Part shown: positions 4,831 through 30,132 of the stretch, in pieces
How positions within the stretch are numbered: position 1 is the first letter of the stretch
Layout: each line of letters opens with the position of its first letter
NCBI GenBank assembly: GCA_002699025.1
Contig: PABA01000186.1
Coordinates: forward strand, 1 to 57,040
Direction: 5' to 3'
From: Sandaracinus sp.
GTDB taxonomy: Bacteria; Myxococcota_A; Polyangia; Polyangiales; Houyiibacteriaceae
DNA: 57,040 nucleotides
The notes under the pieces: generated by a model
Told to the model about the DNA's origin: nothing
What the model saw: the letters and a program-made list of their open reading frames with translations, nothing else
The model's database searches: none
Translations under genes and position numbers: made by a program

Positions 4831-5270
4831 TGACCGGGGGTCAGTTAATTGGGCGAGGCAGCGGCTTCCGAGCTCCGCGGCGGGTCCGGAGCCCCTCGCG
4901 GACCCTCACGAAGTCAATGAATCCAAAGGCTTGGGCACGCCGAGGCGATGTCCGCAGGACGCCCGGTCCGGGGCTTTGGTGACCTGGAGTCATTGATTCG
5001 GGGGCGCGAGCCGCCGAGCGGCTCCGCGGACCGTCTCGGGATCCCATGGGTCCGCCACGAGGCCAATGAATTCGATGTGTTGGCTTCCATGAGCGGGTGT
5101 CCGCAGGACTCCCGCTGCGGACTCCTGCGGCGGCCTTTGGTGACCCGGGGTCAGTTGTGTGGAGCGGGGGAGCGGCGGCGGAGCGCCACGGGCCACTCCG
5201 AGCTCCTTTCGATGGACCCGAACCCAATGATTCCAAGGGCTCGAGCCGACCGTCCGGGTGTCCGCAGGAC
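4831..5270. repeat. three registered ~150-bp degenerate repeats with palindromic landmarks
   Basis: Units begin at 4831, 4980 and 5141 with TGACC-N3-GGTCA palindromes (the middle copy has one mismatch: TGACCTGGAGTCA). In each unit CAATGA lies exactly 84 bases after the start (4915, 5064, 5225). The small palindrome GTCCGCAGGAC lies exactly 119 bases after the start (4950, 5099, 5260). The sequence between the landmarks has diverged a good deal but without net insertions or deletions. Confidence 0.85.
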
Positions 5271-5338
5271 TCCTCTGGACCCGGGCTCCGACCGTGCCCG
5301 CAGGACTCCTTCCCGGGGTCGCTCGAGCCCCAGCGGGT

Positions 5339-5568
5339 GTCCGCAGGACTCGTCTGCGGGTGTCCGCAGGGCTCTCGGGGCGCCGTCCGGGTGTCCGCAG
5401 GACTCCCCTCGGGGCCCGCAGGACTCTCTCGGGGGGCCCAGGGGACTCCACTCGGGGGCCGCAGGACTCTCTCGGGGGCCGTCCGGGTGTCCGCAGGACT
5501 CCTCTCGGGGTGTCCGCAGGACTCCTCTGGGGGTGTCCGCAGGACTCCTCTCGGGCTCTCCGCAGGGC
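5339..5568. repeat. array of about ten GTCCGCAGGAC palindromes spaced two helical turns apart
   Basis: Copies of GTCCGCAGGAC (GTCC-GCA-GGAC, an interrupted palindrome) or close variants start at 5339, 5362, 5393, 5414, 5436, 5457, 5489, 5512, 5535 and 5558. Spacing is 21-23 bp except for two steps of 31-32 bp. The wider unit is roughly GGGTGTCCGCAGGACTC plus a six-base spacer. The same palindrome closes each of the three longer repeats just upstream. Confidence 0.88.
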
Positions 5569-5765: not shown

Positions 5766-8333
5766 ATGCGCGCCATCGGCCTCTCGCTTCTCCTTCTCCT
5801 CCTCGCGGCACCGGCAGCCCGCGCCCAGACGGTGGTCATCGACCCGGGCCACGGCGGCTCGGACCCCGGCGCGGTCGGCTGCGGCCTCGAGGAAGAGGAC
5901 GTCGTCCTCGACATCGCCCGCCGCACCCGCGACCTCCTCCGCGCCGACGGCGTCGACGCCATCCTCACCCGCGAGGACGATCGGAGCGTCGGCCTCTCCG
6001 CCCGCGCCTCCTTCGCCAACTCCCGGGGCGCCAGCCGCTTCGTCTCCATCCACGCCAACGCCAACGCGGGCACGCCGGCCACCGGCACCGAGACCTTCGT
6101 CTACACCTCGGCCTCCTCCACCAGCCGCACCATGGGCCAGCAGGTGCAGGACGAGATGATCGCCGCCTGGGGCCTCCGGAACCGCGGCCTGAAGTCGGCC
6201 AACTTCGCCGTCCTCCGCCTCACCTCCATGCCCGCCGCCCTCTCCGAGACGGGCTTCATCAACCGCTGCGATCCGGACGCCGCCCTCCTCGGCTCGGCCT
6301 CTGCCCGCCAGGAGATGGCCGTCGCCCACTACCGCGCCATCCTCCGCAGCCTCGGCCGCACCCCCGGCGACCCGGGCCCCGCCCCCGAGCCCGAGCCCGA
6401 GCCGGAGCCCGAGCCCGAGCCGAGCGGCGGCCGCCTCATCGGCGTCGTCTTCGAGGACACCGGCGCCGGCCTCGAGGACACGAGCCGCCGCCTCCCGGAG
6501 GCCACCGCCCGCATCGTCGAGACCGGCACCACCAGCGACCTCGACGGCGAGGCCTTCTTCCGCTTCGCCGCCCCCGCCGGCACCTACACCATCGAGGCCT
6601 CGGCCCCCGGCTACACCACGGCCCGCCGCACCTGCTCGGTCGGCACCGGCGACACCTGGTGCTCGGTCGGCCTCGAGCCCTCCGTCGCCGCCCCCGGCAC
6701 CGTCCGGGGCGTCGCCTTCCGCGACCGCGGCGTGGGCTTCGCCGACACCAGCGAGCGCCTCGCCGGCGCGACCGTCCGCGTCGCGGAGACCGGCGACACG
6801 GTCCGCACGGACGACGGCGGCAACTTCGCCCTCAGCCTCCCGGCCGGCGGCTACACCCTCGAGCTCTCGGCCGCGGGCCACACCTCCGCCAGCCGCCGCT
6901 GCGTCGTCGACGCCGGCGCCGTCGCCTGGTGCTCCCTCGGCCTCGTCCGCGAGGCCGGCGGCGGCGCGCTCCAGGGCGTCGTCTTCGAGGACGGCGCGCC
7001 CTCCCGCCGCGTCGTCGGCGCGACGGTGCGCATCGTCGAGAACGGCGCGACCGAGCTGAGCGCCGCGGGCTCGGGCTACTGGCGCTTCGAGCTCCCCGCC
7101 GGCACCTGGACCGTCGAGGTCGAGGGCGAGGGCCTCAGCCCGGCGAGCCGCCGCTGCACGGTCACCCGCGGCGGCGAGACCTGGTGCTCGGTCGGCGTCC
7201 GCTTCGGCGGCCGGGGCGGCGCCGTGATCGACCCGGGCCTCGAGGAGCCCGAGGTGGTCGAGGGGGTCGACGACGACGCCGCGGCCGCGGACCCGGCCCT
7301 CGCCGGGGGCCTCTCCAGCGGCTGCAGCGCCGGCGGACCCGCGCCGACGGGCGGCGCCCTGCTGTTGCTCCTCGTCCTCTTCGGCCTCCGCTCGCGCCGC
7401 CGTCGCGCGCTCGCTCCGGCCCCCCTCGCCGCGCTCGCGCTCGTCGGCCTCGTCGGCTGCGCCGGCGCCGAGCCCGGCGCGGAGCTCGGCCTCGAGCCGG
7501 GCGCGGAGCTCGACCTCGCCCCGGCGCTCGACGAGCCCCTCGCGCTCGGCGAGACGGTCCAGCTCGTCGACGAGGTCGCGCCCTTCGCCGAGGTCCGCGC
7601 CGCCCGCGTGATCTCCGCCGGCGGCTACGCCGACGCGACCCTCTCGCCGGACGGGACCCGCCTCGCCCTCAGCCACGACACCTTCGCCGGCGTCAGCGTC
7701 CAGCCCGCGGACGGGAGCGCGCTCCCCCAGGTGCTCCGCGAAGGCCGCGCCCTCGGCATCGCCCCCGTCTGGCGCCCGGACGGCCGCGCCCTCGGCCTCC
7801 GCGCCCCCGGCCAGACGGAGACCGCCGTGCCCCTCCTGAACGTCGACCTCGGCGGCCGGGACATCGCCCCCGAGCCGAGCGACGCCCTCCGCGCGCGCGT
7901 CGACGACGCCGGCCACGTCCTCGTCGGCGTCGGCGCCCGCACCGAGCGCCTCGGCCCGCCGGGCGACCGCTACTTCGCCCCGCGCGTCGGTCCCGAAGAG
8001 CGCTTCGTCGCCTTCCAGGGCCTCAGCTCGGGCCTCTACCTCCACGACCTCGACCGCGGCGTCACCTACCACCTCGCCCAGGGCGGCGGTCACGCGCGCT
8101 TCGATCCGGCGGGGCGCTGGCTGGTCTTCGAGCGCCTCGAGGACGACGGCCACGTCTTCACCGCCGGCGACGTGATGATCGTCGACCTCCAGCCCGAGGT
8201 GCCCGCCATGGCGCCGCTCGTGGCGACGGACGCCCTCGAGCGCGCGCCGGACCTCGCCGGCGGCCGGCTCAGCTACCTCCGCGGCAACGAGGGCGTCGAG
8301 GTGGTCGTCGCCGAGCTCGCCTTCACCCGCTGA
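5766..8333 (+). CDS. N-acetylmuramoyl-L-alanine amidase with three repeat domains and MYXO-CTERM, continuous in frame with a lipoprotein-like beta-propeller
   Basis: This is an 855-residue open frame with a signal peptide (1-20) ending ARAQ. Residues 21-205 are an Amidase_3 domain with the zinc site: VIDPGHGG (His 29), Glu about 43, SIHANAN (His 96) and the catalytic SETGF Glu. It should cleave the stem peptide from N-acetylmuramic acid in the periplasm. A Pro-Glu linker follows, then three related modules of about 80 residues (about 233-490), each ending in two Cys within a WCSVGL-type motif and resembling CarboxypepD_reg/SdrD-like beta-sandwiches. Around Cys 520 there is a MYXO-CTERM-like tail: SSGCSAGG, a hydrophobic helix, then RSRRRR. 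The frame does not stop: a second hydrophobic helix ends in lipobox LVGC (Cys 565), and about 270 residues with LSPDGTRLALS-type propeller blades follow. No in-frame ATG or GTG lies near the junction; a TTG at 7365 is the only alternative start. It could be a sequencing frameshift that fused two genes, or a true polyprotein. Confidence 0.85.
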   Translation: MRAIGLSLLLLLLAAPAARAQTVVIDPGHGGSDPGAVGCGLEEEDVVLDIARRTRDLLRADGVDAILTREDDRSVGLSARASFANSRGASRFVSIHANANAGTPATGTETFVYTSASSTSRTMGQQVQDEMIAAWGLRNRGLKSANFAVLRLTSMPAALSETGFINRCDPDAALLGSASARQEMAVAHYRAILRSLGRTPGDPGPAPEPEPEPEPEPEPSGGRLIGVVFEDTGAGLEDTSRRLPEATARIVETGTTSDLDGEAFFRFAAPAGTYTIEASAPGYTTARRTCSVGTGDTWCSVGLEPSVAAPGTVRGVAFRDRGVGFADTSERLAGATVRVAETGDTVRTDDGGNFALSLPAGGYTLELSAAGHTSASRRCVVDAGAVAWCSLGLVREAGGGALQGVVFEDGAPSRRVVGATVRIVENGATELSAAGSGYWRFELPAGTWTVEVEGEGLSPASRRCTVTRGGETWCSVGVRFGGRGGAVIDPGLEEPEVVEGVDDDAAAADPALAGGLSSGCSAGGPAPTGGALLLLLVLFGLRSRRRRALAPAPLAALALVGLVGCAGAEPGAELGLEPGAELDLAPALDEPLALGETVQLVDEVAPFAEVRAARVISAGGYADATLSPDGTRLALSHDTFAGVSVQPADGSALPQVLREGRALGIAPVWRPDGRALGLRAPGQTETAVPLLNVDLGGRDIAPEPSDALRARVDDAGHVLVGVGARTERLGPPGDRYFAPRVGPEERFVAFQGLSSGLYLHDLDRGVTYHLAQGGGHARFDPAGRWLVFERLEDDGHVFTAGDVMIVDLQPEVPAMAPLVATDALERAPDLAGGRLSYLRGNEGVEVVVAELAFTR

Positions 8334-30020: not shown

Positions 30021-30132
30021 GGGAGCCCTGCGGACGCTGCGCGGGAGCCCTGCGGACGCTGCGCGGGAGCCCTGCGGACGGCTGCGCGGGAGCCCTGCGG
30101 ACGCTGCACGGGAGCCCTGCCAGACGCTGCGC
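30021..30132. repeat. 22-23-bp tandem repeat, five copies
   Basis: Units start at 30021, 30043, 30065, 30088 and 30110 and read GGGAGCCCTGCGGACGCTGC plus two bases. The third unit has one extra G; the fifth is altered (CCTGCCAGACG). On the other strand the unit contains GTCCGCAGGGCTC, which matches variants in the array at 5339-5568. The array lies just downstream of the stop of the TetR gene at 30148 (minus strand). Confidence 0.93.

Follow-up and report, generated by a model that had tools for sequence, protein, structure and literature searches.

An internal MYXO-CTERM signal followed by a lipoprotein signal in a putative two-product envelope polyprotein of Sandaracinus sp.

A reading frame joining a secreted amidase, a MYXO-CTERM tail, the lipobox LVGC and a beta-propeller was identified in the window, which is the whole stretch of 57,040 nucleotides of contig PABA01000186.1 from Sandaracinus sp. 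analysed here. Its product is predicted from sequence to be an envelope polyprotein giving two mature products, and we hold this to be probable. The conserved joint, the two signals and the enzymes encoded in the genome support this reading, which the preliminary description had proposed, by comparison only; cleavage has not been shown experimentally, and there are no lipidation or localisation data. The idea is also supported in a broader form than first stated, as a recurring class of junction whose second signal is sometimes of the SPase I type.

Layout of the window frame

The frame at positions 5766-8333 (+) is open throughout and encodes 855 amino acids. An N-terminal Sec signal peptide of the SPase I type (MRAIGLSLLLLLLAAPAARA/Q, where the slash marks the predicted cut) was recognised by eye in the translation at 5766..5828 (+), and the N-terminal signal peptide expected of MYXO-CTERM precursors is thus present (MRAIGLSLLLLLLAAPAARAQ, judged by eye). 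The Amidase_3 domain (N-acetylmuramoyl-L-alanine amidase; Pfam PF01520, E=8e-49, residues 23-193) lies at 5832..6344 (+), and H29, E43, H96 and E161, which we take to be its conserved metal/catalytic residues, are invariant in 11 homologues, meeting the requirement for both domain and residues. Three carboxypeptidase-regulatory/PEGA-like repeats (PF13620, PF08308) occupy 6411..7205 (+).

The internal MYXO-CTERM signal (7314..7406, +; TIGR03901/TIGR03382) consists of SSGCSAGG with Cys520 (7323-7325), TM1 (about 7356-7388) and the Arg cluster RSRRRR (R542SRRRR547, 7389..7406), the sole basic cluster between both hydrophobic segments. The window protein has the invariant Cys, the transmembrane helix and the Arg cluster of MYXO-CTERM proteins, and lacks the C-terminal position, with 308 residues lying beyond the signal. 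TIGR03382 scored 16.5 bits against a cut-off of 15.85 in the protein scan, while TIGR03901 gave 17.4 bits in the whole-protein scan, below its cut-off of 20, and 21.8 bits, above the cut-off, at the same signal in the genome scan.

The internal lipoprotein signal (7407..7460, +), assigned from the sequence and the alignment of 11 homologues, is composed of the second hydrophobic stretch (7407-7457) and the lipobox LVG/C ending in Cys565 (7458-7460). A basic n-region, hydrophobic core and lipobox Cys are all present (RSRRRR-ALAPAPLAALALVGLVG-C), and the usual location at the N terminus of a translation product is not, as the signal is internal and without a usable start codon in the window. Behind Cys565, the predicted lipidation site, a flexible linker (7461..7550, +) was modelled by AlphaFold2 with pLDDT <50, the first 31 residues past the Cys being disordered in the model of the C-terminal half. 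The remainder, with the stop codon (7557..8333, +), is a TolB-like propeller according to AlphaFold2 and Foldseek: the half is all-beta with pLDDT 86.9, and TolB chains head its Foldseek list as the nearest solved fold, as required of a propeller. In the full-length AlphaFold2 model, helices 529-543 and 553-561 are flanked by disordered stretches. The one-frame arrangement that had been described from the letters was thereby confirmed by translation, domain models and structure prediction.

A single basic cluster of <=7 residues stands between the hydrophobic stretches in 35 of 47 listed junctions (23 amidase-propeller and 24 others, counted by hand from the junction table, with G266 added by eye), and such a lone cluster must therefore serve both signals. 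On its sequence, RSRRRR is read as both the end of the MYXO-CTERM signal and the n-region of the second signal, a double role that had been suggested beforehand and that recurs in most tabulated junctions.

Conservation and splitting of the amidase-propeller pair

Ten homologues, drawn from three families within the order and with identity in the N-terminal half as low as about 43%, have a frame that is uninterrupted at the joint. In the alignment (11 homologues, mean column identity 36%), Cys520, R544, R546 and Cys565 are invariant amid variable surroundings. A survey covering 379 genomes of the phylum together with the genome_contigs collection gave 23 fused amidase-propeller genes including that of the window, from ten families (f1, f3, f11, f12, f31, f39, f45, f48, f53 and f55), with a frame-broken MAG copy in G280 left out; a fused copy is present in the single-contig genome G044. 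Among the strong matches of the propeller profile in 184 genomes of the window's order, no split copies were found, and a short frame in the same survey (G181, 393 aa) leaves the contig end with the joint still inside. In close pairs, both synonymous and amino-acid differences span the joint, in counts too small to measure selection.

A strict rule demanding a lipobox, a hydrophobic core and basic residues was applied to 30 fused frames (36,674 aa) and returned 24 junctions, five N-terminal signals and nothing elsewhere; judged by this pattern and by the invariant residues in the alignment, the junction signal is far above chance. At the same site, orthologues carry a lipobox Cys in some cases and an SPase I site in others (sites assigned by eye), with ARA/H, GHA/D and THA/T as examples of the latter. 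To fit the well-supported branches of the propeller tree, the lipoprotein label must have changed two or more times, and the second signal appears to behave as an ordinary signal peptide. At L034:1278-1625 (G016), (RCENGP)n tandem repeats enlarge the cytoplasmic loop between the helices, with both signals intact.

Other arrangements of the pair were found in more distant lineages. In family f46, an amidase with a terminal MYXO-CTERM precedes a separate secreted propeller gene; in f15 and f38, the order is reversed, the propeller gene standing ahead of an amidase that again has MYXO-CTERM at its end. Sumerlaeota have amidase and propeller as two adjacent genes, and in a Planctomycetota MAG (L139) the two are fused directly, without the signals. 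The amidase and the propeller are thus a conserved unit, because the pair recurs fused, adjacent or split across lineages. Where Myxococcota have the pair split, both halves bear ordinary signals of their own.

A split pair also occurs in the window's own genome (G000:C19, L269, 184000-192000), where the upstream gene ends in RRRNGGTR, its stop overlaps the next ATG (ATGA), and the downstream gene encodes a lipoprotein, MSRLLQRFATLSALGLAAGALAGCDVEPYC. This pair is 58% identical to the fused paralogue C24 over about 1000 aa upstream and 927 aa downstream, the Cys of the C19 lipoprotein aligns with the internal Cys of C24, and the fused form has three more paralogues there (family C24/C163/C145/C6). 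Fused and split forms are thus interchangeable over evolution, and their presence in one genome provides a natural control. As for the question of joined or separate homologues raised in the preliminary description, the joined form is kept widely, and separate genes were met only in distant relatives and in one paralogous pair; the separate genes themselves support two products, because each half keeps an ordinary signal.

Census of internal MYXO-CTERM junctions

A census relying on the MYXO-CTERM model TIGR03901 alone was performed in two genomes, with matches inspected individually. The window's genome has 62 matches (about 60 MYXO-CTERM signals), 51 of them within 7 residues of the protein end. 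Of the MYXO-CTERM signals, eight lie internally ahead of a further domain, and each of these runs directly into a signal, of the lipobox type in seven cases and of the SPase I type in one; L259 (no Cys), the second match in L245 (other frame) and L212 (a 67-aa tail without a signal) were set aside. In the closed genome G044, 58 of the 67 matches are terminal and six have >60 aa beyond; five of these long tails begin with a signal, of the lipobox type in four and of the SPase I type in one, and the sixth is Arg-rich (L315). A fusion peculiar to the window gene was rejected by this census of both genomes.

The other fused genes of the window's genome (G000:C141, C24, C163, C145, C6, C87 and C46; L270-L275, L114) carry unrelated domains. 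Fused pairs unrelated to the amidase-propeller gene were also found in other genomes, among thrombospondin-repeat, Kelch/PEGA and OmpA proteins, including one frame (L120) with TSP3, MYXO-CTERM, an SPase-I-type signal and OmpA; these were chosen with the junction profile and serve as examples, not as a count. We are inclined to think, with some reservation, that Myxococcota use a generic junction in which a MYXO-CTERM signal and a type I or II signal share one basic cluster, so that one translation yields two proteins anchored or secreted separately after processing by two membrane proteases, and that roughly one in ten MYXO-CTERM signals of the two genomes counted belongs to such a junction.

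Two further layouts were observed. In L113 and L117, the halves look by eye like one protein repeated in tandem, as though duplicated genes had merged by loss of a stop. L043 (G015:C24), a frame of 1156 aa, is a double polyprotein: its first half is lipoprotein-like and carries TSP3 repeats and MYXO-CTERM, and the other half repeats this plan and has a terminal MYXO-CTERM of its own.

Proposed processing, known systems and upstream repeats

The window's genome encodes a cognate myxosortase, MrtC (NF040594, 255.1 bits against a cut-off of 195), as well as one LspA and three Lgt-like loci, so that both Lgt and LspA are available. Myxosortase and the lipoprotein-cutting enzyme are both thought to recognise a modified cysteine. 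As we infer the route, Sec would export the amidase half via the N-terminal signal peptide, and TM1 of MYXO-CTERM would halt transfer while the Arg cluster stays on the cytoplasmic side. Export would then be restarted by TM2, acting as an internal lipoprotein signal with the same Arg cluster as its n-region, so that both folded halves come to lie outside. Lipidation of Cys565 by Lgt and an LspA cut before it would give a lipoprotein propeller, a MrtC cut at Cys520 would give a C-terminally anchored amidase, and a two-helix leftover of about 45 aa would be discarded. The joined gene may set a 1:1 output of the amidase and its partner propeller, and in orthologues whose second signal has an SPase I site in place of the lipobox, the propeller would be set free in soluble form along the same pathway. 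One of the three Lgt-like loci (L297-L300) could supply the acyltransferase so far missing for MYXO-CTERM.

The propeller might instead be made, also or only, from an internal start, the two cistrons overlapping in frame and the fused frame being a side effect of the overlap; the split paralogue with its ATGA overlap in the same genome fits such an arrangement, and in G044 and G182 an ATG stands immediately upstream of RRRR at the junction. The start codons found elsewhere speak otherwise. Between the cysteines of the window there is no usable start, the sole TTG lying inside TM1 upstream of the Arg cluster, and no ATG, GTG or TTG occurs between the Arg cluster and Cys565; in G011, none of the three was found between both cysteines. 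In the stretch that begins at the Arg cluster and stops 9 aa short of the cut, 20 of 46 tabulated junctions are without ATG/GTG/TTG, 34 have no start codon that would keep a basic n-region, and only five contain an ATG. Because starts are absent from many junctions, internal initiation cannot be the general explanation, and, with no stop codon closing the upstream part, the fused product would be made regardless. As far as codon content can decide, separate translation from standard start codons is excluded in several members, the window among them. An internal start as a general rule was rejected on these counts; it remains possible in G044 and G182 and for genus g23, and for the window gene we consider overlapping cistrons improbable. 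That an assembly error or frameshift merged two genes is scarcely conceivable: the window's genome is a 238-contig assembly, but the joint is repeated in about 20 other assemblies, the single-contig genome included, and in unrelated gene pairs, and this conservation refutes a sequencing error or missing stop.

A more serious alternative, still unlikely in our judgement, is that only one cut is made or none, the product remaining as a TM1-TM2 hairpin in the inner membrane or being cut by LspA alone, with the amidase keeping a two-helix anchor. Helices 529-543 and 553-561 of the AlphaFold2 model fit a hairpin, and activity of MrtX on an internal substrate is without experimental data: it has been proven on the terminal MYXO-CTERM of TraA, not on one with a second helix after it (PMC11980579). 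The same paper states that without MrtX some uncleaved MYXO-CTERM protein is still surface-exposed (PMC11980579), and the direct L139 fusion without signals shows that one joined chain can also work. A hairpin alone, however, needs neither the invariant Cys565 nor the SPase I site of orthologues at the same position, and the split relatives, with their own signal on each half, also argue against it; a generic hairpin is disfavoured by the invariant Cys565 together with the swap between lipoprotein and SPase I signals.

The two-product reading makes the system a variant of known sorting signals, not a new kind of system. The window protein resembles the MYXO-CTERM/myxosortase system (TIGR03901; MrtX, MrtC) in Cys motif, helix, Arg cluster, signal peptide and MrtC, and differs in having the signal internal, with a signal peptide and another secreted domain directly behind it. 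Compared with a bacterial lipoprotein signal (Lgt/LspA), it has the same basic region, core, lipobox, Cys and flexible linker, placed in the middle of a precursor. In the FbcH cytochrome b/c1 precursor of Bradyrhizobium, one gene gives two envelope proteins by cleavage of an internal signal peptide; only signal peptidase I acts there, and the first product has no sorting tail. A Haloferax ArtA substrate, in the work of Abdul Halim 2017 as cited in PMC11980579, is said to carry a non-terminal tripartite signal and to be processed though not C-terminal, and thus shares a C-terminal-type sorting signal away from the C terminus, whereas enzyme and signal differ; we know of no lipoprotein signal behind it. 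To our knowledge, cellular polyproteins are uncommon in bacteria, and a literature search on bacterial polyproteins with internal signal peptides yielded nothing beyond viral or unrelated papers.

Guo, Haft and Wall 2025 report that MrtX cleaves the terminal MYXO-CTERM of TraA, for which the cysteines are required, and cite earlier work that such signals function mid-protein (PMC11980579). MXAN_5598 of Myxococcus xanthus is described there as having an internal MYXO-CTERM, possibly through gene fusion, with its N-terminal part proposed to be processed; like the window protein it has this signal between two envelope domains, and L120 has a similar domain layout, but it is treated as a rare atypical case, and the passages considered mention no lipobox, second signal peptide or class (PMC11980579). 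The claim that the arrangement lacks precedent consequently fails for an internal MYXO-CTERM as such and stands for a recurring MYXO-CTERM/signal-peptide junction, which was not found in the searched literature. If the reading is true, a recurring modular junction would make two envelope proteins from one gene, which would alter gene annotation and counts, and myxosortase would be shown able to act on internal sites; a single molecule would also allow the C-terminal sorting cut and the lipoprotein cut to be tested side by side in vivo.

Repeats were also observed upstream of the frame. Twelve copies of a 15-mer like GTGTCCGCAGGACTC (<=2 mismatches) lie at 4948-5547, ending about 220 bases upstream of the start codon. 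The entire window has 15 matches (0.36 expected), of which the remaining three (GCGTCCGCAGGGCTC) lie at 30023-30104 on the opposite strand. Longer imperfect direct repeats of 55 and 22 nt, with a spacing of about 149-161, occupy 4831-5156 in the same upstream region.
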